DNA of 64,000 nucleotides from Diphasiastrum complanatum (Eukaryota; Streptophyta; Lycopodiopsida; Lycopodiales; Lycopodiaceae): NCBI GenBank assembly GCA_029204225.1, contig CM055109.1, positions 3,748,733-3,812,732 on the forward strand, read 5' to 3'. Positions 13,362-45,377 of this stretch are shown piece after piece. The position numbers were made by a program, and so were the translations under genes. Within the stretch, counting starts at the first letter, position 1, and each line of letters begins with the position of its first letter. The notes under the pieces were generated by a model, which was not told the origin of the DNA, ran no database searches, and was given only the letters and a program-made list of their open reading frames with translations.

Positions 13362-13921
13362 TGTCATGTGCTACATGTAATTAGCCCATGAGCTTACTAA
13401 TGAATTGCCAAATATAGCCATGGAGCTAAATTAGATTAGAACTAGTCAATAGGACAGTTAATAAAGTGGTTCGAACAACCTCGTTATAATTGAGAATAGT
13501 GGAATTGTAATAATTTGTAAGGCCCAATTTAGCTAAATAAGGTCCCAAACTTATAGTAGAGGCACAAATGATCACTATAAATATCTAAAGTCGTGCTAAA
13601 TTTGGAGGCTATTGTTTATTTTGTAATTTTGAGTTTTAAGAGATTTAGGAGCTTCTCTTAGAGAGCTTTCTTGATGAAAAAAGTGGTTCATGTGCCTAAA
13701 ATCACATGAGAGCTATGATCATGCTCTAGAATCAGGCCCTATCTTGTGAATGATCAATAATCATGAATAAAGATACCTTACTTTGCCTAATTTGGTGAAG
13801 TTTTGTTACTTTTAGCTATCTTTTTGATTTTTGACTAGTTTCTTGATTTCTTGCAATTCCATTGTAATTTGATGTTTAATGAATGGATTAGATGTTTGAA
13901 TGCTAAGGTTGGCACATGACA
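13362..13921 (+). repeat. 5' LTR of family member 1
   Basis: 560 bp, bounded by the 10-bp inverted termini. A TATA box (TATAAATA) lies at 13576-13583, and an AATAAA-like signal (GAATAAAG) about 200 bp further on, giving the expected U3-R-U5 order. Confidence 0.95.
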
Positions 13922-13925
13922 ATTT

Positions 13926-13937
13926 TGGTATCAGAGC
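13926..13937 (+). other. Primer-binding site (initiator tRNA-Met type)
   Basis: TGGTATCAGAGC, the usual plant PBS complementary to the 3' end of initiator tRNA-Met, 4 bp downstream of the 5' LTR. Confidence 0.92.
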
Positions 13938-14470
13938 ATTAGATCCTTTCCCCATCAGATTTGGTGGATTTTGTTAAATTTGGTAAAGTTTCTTGTTCTA
14001 GCTTTCTTGATTTTTTAATTTCCATCAATTTTTGACTAACTAGTTCTCATTTTTTGTGTAGTTTCTTGTTGTATATCAATAGATCTCTCTTTTAGCTTTC
14101 AGGAGGTACTAAGTTTTTCTGATTTGGAGCTATAATGAGCAAGTTATGGCCATTTTAGTGTTTTCTTTCCAATTTTAGCTAGTTGTAGCTTTTTGCAGTC
14201 TGTTTCTCTTATTTTTGGCTGAATTTTTGGCCAAACTTTTTGACTATAATTCTGTAGGATTGTAGATCTCACTCTTAGCTTGAATCTAAGCCAATTTGGT
14301 TGAAAATTGAGGGAGATGTGACAAATCTTGTGGAAGAGGTCAAATTCTAGTTTGAGTAGGGAATTTGGGAGAGAATCAATTCAACCTTTCATTTCTGAAG
14401 TTCTGTTTCTTTGTAATTTTTTTTCAATTCTTGCATTTTGAAGTTTTCGTTAAAAATAATAATAATAATA

Positions 14471-14578
14471 AACCTAACCGTACACGCCGACCCTAACCTA
14501 ACCTACCTACCCACCTGTCCTAAACCTAACCCTAATTCATCTCTCTCTCTCTCTCTCTCTCTCTCTCTCTCTCTCTCA
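14471..14578 (+). repeat. Telomere-like CCTAA block followed by (CT)n
   Basis: Degenerate CCTAA/CCCTAA/CCTAAACC units at 14471-14535, then ATTCAT and a CT run to about 14577. The same block, reverse-complemented, is at 44180-44247 in family member 2, so it belongs to the element rather than being an old chromosome end. The cargo fragment starts directly after the CT run. Confidence 0.85.
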
Positions 14579-14588
14579 CAGATAGAGA

Positions 14589-14904
14589 TCACAATCCCTT
14601 GATCATATCAACAACTGCTTGGCATGTTAAATCCAGCAAACTTTTGATATTTAGATGATTTGCAGCCAAAATGAGATCAAACAGAGTCGCTTGATTGACT
14701 TTGACAAAATCCGCATCCCACGCCTTGACGTCCTCCTCCGGAATTGCCTTTTCATCACCAGATGTGTGCAGGTCCACAAGATACTTACAATATTCGATAA
14801 CCTTGGCGAGTATCTTGCTTATGACATTAGGAAGGGGACGACACTGTCTTTGCCGGTATCCACGATCATATTCATCCACCTCAAACATATGACCATCAGA
14901 GCTC
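14589..14904 (-). pseudogene. Captured SKP1 (SCF ubiquitin-ligase adaptor) fragment
   Basis: The translation carries SKP1 signatures: [51 protein letters not shown] and [22 protein letters not shown]1 links F-box proteins to cullin-1. Compared with plant SKP1, about a dozen residues after FEVDE (the ALESQTIK segment) are lost, with a frame slip there. The copy stops after DMIKG, so the C-terminal F-box-binding helices are missing; MIKG is, from memory, where plant SKP1 genes have an intron. It lies antisense to the retrotransposon that carries it. Non-functional as SKP1; it could give antisense RNA when the element is transcribed. Confidence 0.9.
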
Positions 14905-15239
14905 CTCCTCCTCCTCACAAGAAAAAAAATAGCTCCTCCTCCTTGATCCGACCAACGACCTACGATCATGACCAGCAGATTGACAGTCTGCGCATTTCAT
15001 CAGATCTAAACTGATATTGATTTTCACATCAGAAAACGCATAACTAACCGCGAAAACTCCATTTGTGCTTACAGTAGCTTCATCTACAATCAATAGATGG
15101 TGTGATTTCCGCATCAGACAGATTCTCGGCATCCTTCCGAACATCCTCTGATTTGTGAACTCCTATTTCGGAAGCAACCGTCTCACATATGTTTCTCTTC
15201 TCTGCTTCATCCGTGTTTCCTCTGCTTCATCCGTGTCGG

Positions 15240-42596: not shown

Positions 42597-42599
42597 GGT

Positions 42600-43360
42600 G
42601 TAGTGACAGATAGTTTGTGGGTTATGGGTCCACAAATTTGAATGAAGTGAGAAGAATTTGGGACAATTGTAAATTTCACTCGTAATTTACGAGTAACAAA
42701 TTTGTTCTTCTCCACCGTCCCAAAATTCTGAGTCCTCAAAGAATGTAACAAAATAGCTATTGGCAAAATGTCAACTTTGTTTCATGGATCAGTTTTGGCT
42801 TTATACCAGTGCTATCATGTCAAGTTCGACGTAATGATCACTTTTGATTTTTACTGCGTCGAAATTTGAGGTCAAATGGAAAAGATATGGAAGTTCAAAG
42901 AAATGGATTATAAAAGGCAAAATGGAACAAAGTTATAAAAAAAAAAAATCGAATGATGATTTTCAGGGTACAGATAGCTGAATACTGTCAAGCTCGATGA
43001 TCTGATTGCTTTTGCTTTTGACTGTACTGAAATCCGACTGCAAACGAAAGAGTTATTGACATACAAAAATCGAGGGACAAACGTAATTAGGCAAACTTAA
43101 GAAAAAGGTCCTGACACAATTTTTTTTTTTTTGAAACATTGGACCGTGAAAGAAATAAAATTGTAGAAATCTTAATAATGACGACACATTTTTTTTCTTG
43201 GTTACTTGGGCGATTTGTTGGGGTACTCTAGGAAGAAAAATATAAAACCGTTAAAGATATAGGAATAAACGAAAATTTTTTATCGGGCACATAAAAGAAA
43301 GATTCTGGCAGCGTGGGCACACAGGCAAGTAAGAGAGAGAAAATCTCAACCGACGCCATT
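42600..43360 (-). other. Shared non-coding module of member 2
   Basis: Reverse-complement match to about 15240-16028 of member 1. No ORF seen. Marks the border of the exchangeable cargo. Confidence 0.6.
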
Positions 43361-43639
43361 TTAGAAAGAGAAAATCTGAACCGACGTTTCCTCAGCGGAT
43401 GCAATCGTAGAGAGAGAAGGGAGGTAGCCGACGGAGAGAGTAAGACGTGAATGTAAAGAATGGACTGAGGCGAGAATCAGCTAAATGTAGAGAAAAATCG
43501 CTACTGCTACTATTGAATCAGGGAGGTAACGATGGATCTTTGTCTCAGCAGGTAGCATCAAAACCTTGAAGAACTGCTTTGGTAGCTGCACTGACGGTCC
43601 TTTTATATGGCGAAAACTTTGCAACTATGAGAAGTGGAT

Positions 43640-44183
43640 CCATTTTTTTGCTGTTGCGGAGGAAGTGCAGAACTCGGCTGATAGGATGGAGTCAGCTTTG
43701 AGATCATGGAGACATATTCGAGCTTTGGCAGAAGCGTCTCCCTATGATGTACCTTCGTGCAACATTATCGATAGTTTTGAACGTGACCTTCTAACCACTC
43801 TTGACACGGTTAAATGGCAGTTACAGGAGTTTGAAAGGGCAGTAATGGTCGCAGCTGCAACAGAGAAAGAAAGTCTACTTGGCAGAGGATGCTCCTTCTA
43901 GGCATCACCAATTTGTGACTGCTATTCAAAGCCAAATAACTTCTACTGAACATGTGTTAAGGGATGCATCATGTCCTCAAGTTTCAGGAGCTATTCATTT
44001 GAACATCAAAGATGATGAAACAGATAGTTTTGCTGAATTTTTGTCAGGACAAAAGTTTTGTGGCAAGCGTGTTGACAATGGCACTAATGCTCATTGCAAT
44101 TCTATGGAAAATCAGCTATTGAGAAACGAAATTTCATGCCGTTTTTTAACACAAATGGATTCTGTGGTAAAGAGAGATGAATT
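43640..44183 (+). pseudogene. Captured plant syntaxin-6 N-terminal-domain gene fragment
   Basis: EKWIHFFAVAEEVQNSADRM, ESALRSW and TVKWQLQEFERAVMVAAA match the helical N-terminal domain of syntaxin-6-like SNAREs, in particular the plant proteins that have this domain without a clear SNARE helix (At4g30240 type, from memory). After a one-base slip near 43890 the second frame continues RHHQFVTAIQSQI, SEHVL-like helix and DSFAEFLSG. Such proteins act in trans-Golgi/endosomal trafficking. The fragment ends at VVKRDELG, where the telomere-like block begins. It is antisense to its retrotransposon. About 280 bp upstream (43360-43640) may be captured 5' UTR. Confidence 0.82.
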
Positions 44184-44247
44184 AGGGTTAGGTTTAGGGT
44201 AGGTAGGTAGATAGGTCAGGTTAGGGTAGACGTGTAGGGTTAGGGCT
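44180..44247 (-). repeat. Telomere-like block of member 2
   Basis: TTAGGG/TTTAGGG/GTAGG units, the reverse complement of 14471-14545 in member 1. The CT run of member 1 is reduced here to AGAGAG at the cargo junction. Confidence 0.85.
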
Positions 44248-44800
44248 ATATTTTCTTAAAAAAAATGAAAGCTTCAAAATGCAAAAACTTGAAAAAATTT
44301 ACAAAGAAACAGAACTTCAGAAATGAAAGGTTGAAGTGCTTCTCTCCCAAATTTCCTACTCAAACTAGAATTTGACCTCTTCCACAAGATTTGACATATC
44401 TCGCTCAATTTTCAACCAAATTGGCTACAAATTGGCTCAGATTCAAGCTAAGAGTGAGATCTACAATCCTACAGAATTACAGTCAAAAAGTTTGGCCAAA
44501 AATTCAGCCAAAACTGGGAAAAACAGACTACAAAAAGCTACAACTAGCTAAAATTGAAAAGAAAACACTAAAATGTCCATAACCTGGTCATTATAACTCC
44601 AAATCAGAAACTCTCAGTACCTCCAGAAAGCTAAAAGAGAGATCTATTGATCTGCAACAAGAAACTACAAAAAAAATTGAGAATTATATAGTAAAAAACT
44701 GAATCAAAATTGTTGAGAATTGAAAAATCAAGAAAGCTAGAACAAGAAACTCTACCAAATTTAGCAAAATCCACCAAATATGCTGTAGAAAGGATCTAAA
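44248..44800 (-). other. Leader of member 2
   Basis: Reverse-complement homologue of 13938-14470 in member 1. No ORF of note. Confidence 0.75.
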
Positions 44801-44816
44801 GCTCTGATACCAAAAT

Positions 44817-45377
44817 TGTCATGTGCCAACCTTAGCATTCAAACATCTAATCCATTCATTAAACATCAATTACAATGGAAATGCAAGAAATCAAGAAAGT
44901 AGTCAAAAATCAAGAAGATAGCTAAAAGTAGCAAAACTTCACCAAAATAGGCAAAGTAAGATATCTTTATTCATGATTATTGATCATTCACAAGATAGGG
45001 CCTGATTCTAGAGCATGATCATAGCTCTCATGTGATTTTAGGCACATGAACCACTTTCTTCATCAAGAAAGCTCTCCAAGAGAAGCTCCCAGATCTCTTA
45101 AAACTCAAAATTATAAAATGAACAATAGCCTCCAAATTTAGCACGACTTTAGCTATTTATAGTGGTCATTTGTGCCTCTACTATAAGTTTGGGGCCTTAT
45201 TTAGCTAAATTGGGCCTTACAACCATTATTACAATTCCGCTATTCTCAATTATAGCAAGGTTGTTTGAACCACTTTATTAACTGTTCTATTGACTAGTTC
45301 TAATCTAATTTAGCTCCATGGCTATATTTGGCAATTCATTAGTAAGCTCATGGGCTAATTACATGCAGGACATGACA
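44817..45377 (-). repeat. 5' LTR of family member 2
   Basis: 561 bp, preceded on its inner side by the PBS at 44801-44812 and followed outside by the target duplicate TGTGT. Confidence 0.93.

Follow-up and report, generated by a model that had tools for sequence, protein, structure and literature searches.

A large family of LTR retrotransposons in the genome of the lycophyte Diphasiastrum complanatum, Ty3-like by its sequence features, carries pieces of spliced host transcripts in one region of the element, between a telomere-like block and a module further downstream. Donor genes were found for five cargos; the main fragments of all five lie antisense to the element, begin toward the front of the mRNA and have their 5′ side toward the module. 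Gene capture by LTR elements is already known; what is new is the recurrence, in a single region, of antisense cargo from mRNA fronts.

Two complete elements with different host cargo

The window (the whole stretch of 64,000 nucleotides analysed here) contains two complete LTR elements, e1 (13362–18960, forward strand) and e2 (41321–45377, reverse strand), each with its own 5-bp target-site duplication (TSD), read in the sequence as CATAA for e1 (13357–13361 and 18961–18965) and TGTGT for e2 (41316–41320 and 45378–45382). The 5′ LTR of e1 (13362–13921) is 94.7% identical to its 3′ LTR (18400–18960), and the e2 LTRs (5′, 44816–45377; 3′, 41321–41882) are 96.1% alike. Primer-binding sites and polypurine tracts were read in these two copies only: the binding site TGGTATCAGAGC, which in e1 we take to be of the Met-tRNA type, lies at 13926–13937 in e1 and at 44801–44812 (reverse strand) in e2, and a GTAGGGGGAG tract precedes the 3′ LTR in both (18390–18399 in e1).

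Behind its 5′ LTR, e1 has a leader that blastn finds in other copies of the family (13922–14445), a telomere-like block of degenerate CCTAA words (14470–14535; read at 44181–44246, reverse strand, in e2) and a CT run at the telomere-side edge of the slot (14539–14577). Six CCTRA words occur in the 120 nt past the leader, against a mean of 0.49 and a maximum of 3 in 500 letter shuffles. On the far side of the slot, alignment places the downstream module, which adjoins TCGGTTGAGATT-type repeats (15287–16028), followed by an acidic open reading frame (ORF; 16029–16667), the first part of which is common to e2, and a gag-like region split between frames (16420–18076). The initial annotation held that the two elements share LTRs, primer-binding site, leader, telomere-like block, module and acidic ORF, and alignment bears this out, with identities of 90.7% across LTR, leader and telomere-like block, 85.4% across module and acidic ORF (e2 42206–43354, reverse strand, is 85% identical to e1 15287–16419) and 95.8% across the 3′ tail and LTR. 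They differ in the slot cargo and in the gag-like part, which is missing from e2.

Paired LTRs, 5-bp TSDs, primer-binding site and polypurine tract mark these as LTR retrotransposons. TSDs are present in six of the seven copies examined (e1, e2, L010, L014, L015 and L019); the seventh, L017, is an allele of e2, and its 3′ LTR match spans only 460 of 560 bases. ORFs of the relatives L012 and L020 match a gag profile of Ty3 type (PF03732; 2e-9 and 2.7e-8), together with a PF19259 match that scores below the cut-off of that profile. Three e1 ORFs scanned with Pfam gave no gag profile match in its own frames and no pol; gag is recognised only through L012 and L020. We assign e1 and e2 to a large Ty3-like LTR family with no pol seen in the ORFs scanned. 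TR-GAG and LARD-type elements are non-autonomous LTR elements with a gag-like region, and the present family may resemble them in that region and in showing no pol in the ORFs scanned; it adds mosaic host cargo and the telomere-like leader block.

Between the telomere-like block and the module the two elements hold fragments of different host genes, as had been proposed: SKP1 in e1 (PF03931, 8.7e-10) and a syntaxin in e2 (STX6_10_61_N, PF09177, 6.9e-16), both antisense to their elements. The SKP1 cargo matches its donor gene (C12:45.46 Mb, L049/L050) at about 14595–14928 (reverse strand), running from the 5′ untranslated region to the DMIKG motif with two internal deletions and one intron missing at its splice sites. 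The syntaxin-61-like cargo (43565–44178, forward strand; donor at C15:46.17–46.18 Mb, L063–L065) starts about 40 nt upstream of the ATG and continues through exons 1–3, and the 8.9- and 2.4-kb introns are exactly gone. Both gene identities stand, and the extents first given (about 14578–15235 and 43365–44183) were too wide. Further e1 pieces at 14937–14997 and 15040–15163 (both reverse strand) match element L052 and locus L056, respectively, and not SKP1; a further e2 piece at 43461–43578 (forward strand) matches L066. The motif CACAG common to the e1 and e2 junctions is a coincidence, as the e2 copy lies within syntaxin gene sequence, which also rules out the idea that CACAG, together with the telomere-like block, serves as a splice acceptor before the cargo. 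Four other loci considered as donors (C22:44.6M, C13:30.2M, C645 and C10:44.18M) show, by eye, module repeats or the telomere-like block.

Slot contents and their origin in spliced transcripts

Copies were gathered from the host genome (1.74 Gb), the slots being those among the best-scoring matches listed. At least 29 distinct slots could be read, and this one region holds several unrelated cargos; some slots have no visible gene and some cargos are common to small lineages. Among the 29 slots listed, syntaxin recurs in 4, SKP1 in 2 and an RRM protein in 2, and the content of 10 was not assigned to any source. Cargo-free slots also occur: in L029, 47 bp separate the match to the telomere-like block from that to the module. 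Pfam gave no informative match for the slots of L011, L012, L018, L021, L026, L030, L033 and L034, and a search of the Protein Data Bank gave nothing informative for L011, only weak chaperonin-60 (CPN60) matches for L012 (E 0.21) and a weak prohibitin match for L030 (E 0.026).

Intron-bearing donors were found in the same genome for five cargos: SKP1, syntaxin-61-like, EF-1alpha, the RRM protein and an unnamed gene carried by L012. All eight introns that these cargos span (one in SKP1, two each in syntaxin, EF-1alpha and RRM, and one in the L012 gene) are missing at the splice sites (seven GT-AG, one GC-AG), with six joins letter-exact and two carrying one or two substitutions. Because of these missing introns, we conclude that the five cargos derive from spliced host transcripts. 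Identity between cargo and donor is about 88–100% per block for SKP1, EF-1alpha and syntaxin.

The cargos studied closely turned out to be mosaics, with pieces from several sources. Pack-MULEs and Helitrons carry mosaic cargo from several genes as well, and capture at the DNA level, by gap repair or through a nested element of either kind, would produce a similar arrangement. Such acquisition keeps introns, however, and is contradicted for the five cargos by the removal of eight introns out of eight; the element ends here are LTRs, and we regard this explanation as highly improbable.

Two apparent cases of kept introns were rejected. The letters after ..SKDGQ in the EF-1alpha cargo belong to a different cargo, ‘X’, and the donor shows both introns gone; a 122-bp gap in the L012 cargo lacks splice sites, and most of that stretch survives in a second copy, L062. 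Two intron-less gene copies were considered as possible independent retrogenes: L067 proved to be an element of the family, with LTR and leader, in which the L012 gene is antisense, and at L068 only a module-type repeat was seen beside antisense EF-1alpha. On the antisense strand of L021, a TTTTCTTGCAG stretch could, by eye, mark where a retained intron ends.

Orientation and a proposed route of capture

The main fragment is antisense to the element in all five donor-verified cargos (two-sided sign chance 0.06 for n = 5 genes); the count becomes seven of seven only when the prohibitin-like and CPN60-like pieces, which have weak support, are included. As with syntaxin, the other fragments begin toward the front of their mRNAs. 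The EF-1alpha fragment runs from 29 nt past the start of a TATATA to ..GISKDGQ, and in element L059 (C7:67.76 Mb), where EF-1alpha lies about a dozen bases past the telomere-like block, its 5′ end and the one in L020 are no more than 3 nt apart. The SKP1 fragment starts 50 nt past its TATATA, the RRM fragment near codon 19, with the inverted ATG region close by, and the L012-gene fragment 7 nt past the A of the ATG in L012 and, in the second copy (L062/L067), 50 nt ahead of it; the 5′ ends of these three lie off the predicted cap. The L012-gene fragment extends beyond its stop codon (by reading) and is thus not solely a front part.

There are exceptions to the common orientation. Cargo L038 contains a 64-nt inversion of RRM sequence, and a different segment of this cargo lies the opposite way in element L048; switches of either polarity therefore occur. 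The entry point varies too, the cargos of L012 and L034/L042 lying, by eye, behind an extra CT/GC-rich stretch absent from e1 and e2. The initial annotation had inferred a fixed slot, fixed orientation and swapping of cargo. The underlying observation is confirmed and the slot interpretation is partly supported: the interval is the same, the main fragments agree in orientation and cargos differ among the 29 slots listed, this last at least partly by reshuffling among copies (L020, L058 and L060). As a rule it is too strict, given the mosaic cargos, the inverted stretch, the reversed segment and the variable entry points.

We consider it probable that the family repeatedly acquires pieces of spliced mRNA in this leader region by template switching, probably during plus-strand synthesis, with later amplification and reshuffling. 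Capture would take place within the virus-like particle, with host mRNA co-packaged. Plus-strand DNA synthesis through the leader would arrive at the telomere-like/CT block and quit the minus-strand cDNA; the detached plus strand could then pair with a co-packaged mRNA over a few bases, copy it toward its cap and rejoin the minus strand at the CT-rich repeats of the module. This path would yield antisense orientation, the mRNA front and a 5′ side toward the module all at once, and several jumps in succession would give mosaics. The plus-strand polarity is a deduction. By eye, four junctions share 4–9 bases, with none clear at others; the shared words are ATCTCT (e2/syntaxin), ATCTCCACC, TGGCAG and AGGA (L038).

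An identical product, antisense and with its 5′ side toward the module, would arise if host mRNA were first made into cDNA and the minus strand of the element switched to the 3′ end of this copy, which corresponds to the cap, and went back to the RNA of the element at the telomere-like block. The inverted bits of L038 suggest that either polarity of template is usable, but this route requires an additional primed host cDNA in the particle, which no observed sequence demands, and we think it rather unlikely. A more serious contender, although we still favour plus-strand switching, is that captures were few and occurred anywhere in both orientations, that only antisense cargo in an untranslated region survived, and that it spread by recombination of co-packaged copies at shared flanks. 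The cargo lineages shared among the slots listed and the joining of X and EF-1alpha in L020 fit this explanation; retention bias alone leaves the mRNA-front start and the 5′ side facing the module unexplained.

More speculatively, the telomere-like/CT block, together with the repeats of the module, may provide plus-strand synthesis with built-in points of exit and re-entry. Such a directional trap for mRNA heads would keep sampling host mRNAs antisense from the cap side, stack several per element and reshuffle them between copies, like a retro-element cassette array; we offer this only tentatively.

Known systems and the spread of cargo

To our knowledge, the step of the LTR life cycle that picks up host genes is not settled. 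Several captures in one place, with spliced donors and a common polarity, let one ask which strand-synthesis step and which sequences invite capture. Pack-MULEs, reportedly shown by Jiang et al. in 2011 to acquire genes directionally, are like the present family in this respect; they are DNA transposons, with no LTR and no RNA step. The primary paper on LTR-mediated retroposition by template switching is that of Tan et al. in 2016. A review of that process (PMC5408686) describes an mRNA source, as in the present family, together with microsimilarity, for which the shared junction words here are candidates, and possibly repeated switches. The scheme given there places switching in the first cDNA strand, which by inference would leave cargo in sense orientation, whereas here all five main fragments are antisense.

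Bs1 of maize is an LTR element that holds pieces of three host genes (PMC13317346). It is one element, whereas several unrelated cargos occupy one region of a large family here. The main fragments in the present family are antisense and come from mRNA fronts. Across maize LTR families, 425 elements with gene fragments represent at least 189 captures in 81 families, and that survey reports no element with fragments from more than one standard nuclear gene (PMC2774510). Its main text never uses ‘antisense’ or ‘orientation’, whereas mosaics and a common orientation are found here. Searches of open full texts listed no report of such an antisense, mRNA-front slot.

The family distributes antisense fragments of housekeeping genes across the genome and is a possible source of small RNAs. 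Cargo retained for this function, as small RNAs or antisense RNA against essential host genes, would agree with targets that include SKP1, EF-1alpha and syntaxin at the block identities given above. Chance packaging would, however, also favour abundant mRNAs, and the cargos contain deletions and frameshifts, so that we judge a functional role improbable. After capture, some cargos multiplied, lost parts and recombined between copies: L020 consists of cargo X with an EF-1alpha copy inserted, and X occurs alone, with no EF-1alpha, in L058 and L060.

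Slot contents across the family

The two window elements of this Ty3-like family, one with an SKP1 cargo (13362-18960, + strand) and one with a syntaxin-61-like cargo (41321-45377, − strand), have LTRs of ~560 bp in the window self-comparison; each carries a separate 5-bp target duplication and a PBS/PPT, and both are therefore real insertions. The same comparison aligns them in three blocks, and they differ in cargo and in a gag-like part that is present in the SKP1 element and missing from the syntaxin element. LTR divergence (K2P) is 0.052 and 0.039, respectively. Second copies of both on the alternative contig C922 (L009 and L017) were taken as alleles. 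Near-identical copies of chromosomal loci occur on the small contigs C922, C172, C4203, C139, C475, C3155 and C2972; alternative haplotypes seem to have been retained in the assembly, and copy counts therefore need de-duplication.

Genome searches yielded first-look candidates rather than verified copy numbers, both for the LTR (2,675, 40 scored) and for the module downstream of the slot (326, 40 scored, 46 places). From the best-scoring matches only, 20 stretches were taken around LTR matches and 18 upstream of module matches. Excluding presumed alleles (L009, L017, L013, L023 and L025; 99.4–100% alike) and L016 (3′ half only) left 14 slots in the LTR set; excluding presumed allele L035, and L036, L041, L044 and L045 (leader and slot unreadable), left 13 in the module set. 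With the two window elements this gives 29 distinct slots, in which L022 and L028 (98% alike) count separately because they lie on different chromosomes.

Several unrelated genes occupy these slots, which bears out the proposal of the initial annotation that one slot of one family holds different cargos. Syntaxin occurs in four (the window element, L015 (partly deleted), L031 and L032), SKP1 in two (the window element and L046), an RRM-protein gene in two (L038 and L043), and EF-1alpha (L020), an unnamed host gene (L012) and a prohibitin-like mosaic (L030) in one each. By eye, L019 has a short stretch in common with the RRM cargos, and slot length and frames revealed no gene in seven slots (L010, L014, L022, L028, L029, L037 and L039). 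Ten were assigned to none of these classes (L011, L018, L021, L024, L026, L027, L033, L034, L040 and L042), among which L018, L024 and L027 resemble, by eye, pieces of other retrotransposons. Behind its leader, L018 has an open 340-aa sense frame (6857-7876), a possible sense cargo with no match in a Pfam search. An alternative type of acidic ORF, MDWDYEQEDDNQSY...-like, replaces the window type in L014, L019 and L022 and is inverted in L021; these four are perhaps a sister subfamily.

Most slots have a degenerate CCTAA block after the leader. At least two CCTRA words were counted in 25 of 27 rows of 120 or 130 nt each (L019 and L028 left out), versus letter-shuffled means of 0.3–0.6. Counts were above the maximum of 500 letter shuffles in 18 rows, and not in L010, L014, L018, L021, L022, L024, L026, L031 and L037.

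Donor genes and intron loss

Whole-genome searches with six cargos found an intron-bearing donor for five (SKP1, syntaxin, EF-1alpha, RRM and the L012 gene), and all eight of the introns concerned are absent from the cargos. The SKP1 cargo exactly joins exons 7.5 kb apart (C12:45468928-45469139 and 45461310-45461382); a gap of ~1 kb recurs in paralogues on C11 and C12. The syntaxin donor (C15:46169640-46181615; introns of 8.9 and 2.4 kb) reads as a protein MAKTLQLWEVDPFFAVAEEVQNSADR..., and the EF-1alpha donor (C10:34631301-34632569) has a 512-bp 5′UTR intron and a 108-bp coding intron. Two introns interrupt the RRM donor (C3:13966599-13967214) and one of 830 bp the L012-gene donor (C19:10858889-10860223). 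Because introns are lost, an RNA step is required.

For the L030 cargo, the whole-genome search identified no intron-bearing donor. Intron-less relatives lie at C7:3.676M, antisense inside a family element with LTR and leader (L067), and at C12:37.28M (L068), where the only adjoining family feature seen is a module-type repeat. On the antisense strand of L021 (post-leader 220-400), TTTTCTTGCAG is by eye a candidate end of a kept intron; if so, it would count against the spliced-mRNA rule for that cargo.

Orientation and position of the cargo

The fixed antisense orientation initially proposed holds for the main fragments of all five donor-verified genes, whose mRNA 5′ side faces the module, but not for every piece: 64 nt of the RRM start-codon region are inverted within L038, and another L038 segment runs in the opposite direction in a further element, L048. 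Likewise, the slot is fixed as an interval common to the family, but the cargo start varies. It lies at the CT run in both window elements; in L059 it is separated from the telomere-like block by about a dozen bases, and in L012 and L034/L042, by eye, additional CT/GC-rich sequence comes before it.

Several cargos are composite. The window SKP1 and syntaxin cargos match at least three and at least two sources, respectively, and two stretches of the L030 mosaic, one with the prohibitin-like frame, are in swapped order relative to a C13 element (L051) and, apparently, to C6. By our reading, the L012-gene fragment extends past the stop codon and is thus not merely a front part. A stretch around ATGGATCCCAACACAGATCCAGCGTAAG on the telomere side of the slot, common to L033, L040, L038 and L043, resembles by eye a first exon that lies in sense and carries a 5′ splice site; it may go back to an older, oppositely oriented capture. 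At the locus matching the further cargo piece 43461-43578 of the syntaxin element (L066, reverse complement 279-401), the stretch continues into a frame read and named by eye as Ty3-type RT-like (LLDTNFIYEIKHIEWISPIVIV), so RNA of other retroelements may also be captured.

Possible route of capture

A minus strand that switched directly to mRNA would acquire its cargo in sense orientation. We propose instead that plus-strand synthesis exits the leader, copies the mRNA 3′ to 5′ toward the cap and then rejoins the element, which would leave antisense cargo with the mRNA 5′ side downstream. EF-1alpha fits this plus-strand route best: it starts at the predicted cap (L057 position 152, 29 nt past the start of TATATA), and its 3′ side is truncated near the telomere-like block in L059. 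At its 3′ join, the window syntaxin cargo has ATCTCT in common with the CT run. An identical product would also come from a less probable alternative to the plus-strand route, in which minus-strand synthesis switches to host cDNA. The EF-1alpha copy of L020 sits inside another cargo, which occurs without it in L058 and L060, and is flanked by a 12-bp repeat with one mismatch (CAAGGAAACGAA); later recombination or renewed switching is the preferred reading of this arrangement.

A review (PMC13317346) lists Bs1, a TRIM that carries a piece of P450, and Rider, and LTR template switching is covered in PMC5408686. A maize survey (PMC2774510) reports 425 elements, which derive from at least 189 captures, and no element that combines pieces of two or more genes. 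The open full-text literature searched yielded no report of a family-wide antisense, mRNA-front slot, for which our evidence base is the five donor-verified captures.

Elsewhere in the window, a 365-aa coiled-coil-like ORF (12167-13264, − strand; no Pfam match above cut-off) starts ~100 bp from the insertion of the SKP1 element. An open copia polyprotein of 1,317 aa lies at 54712-58665 (− strand) and includes gag, integrase and RT domains. Two inverted copies of a 3.1-kb repeat, 93% alike (20283-23344 and 60921-64000), probably belong to another transposon family.
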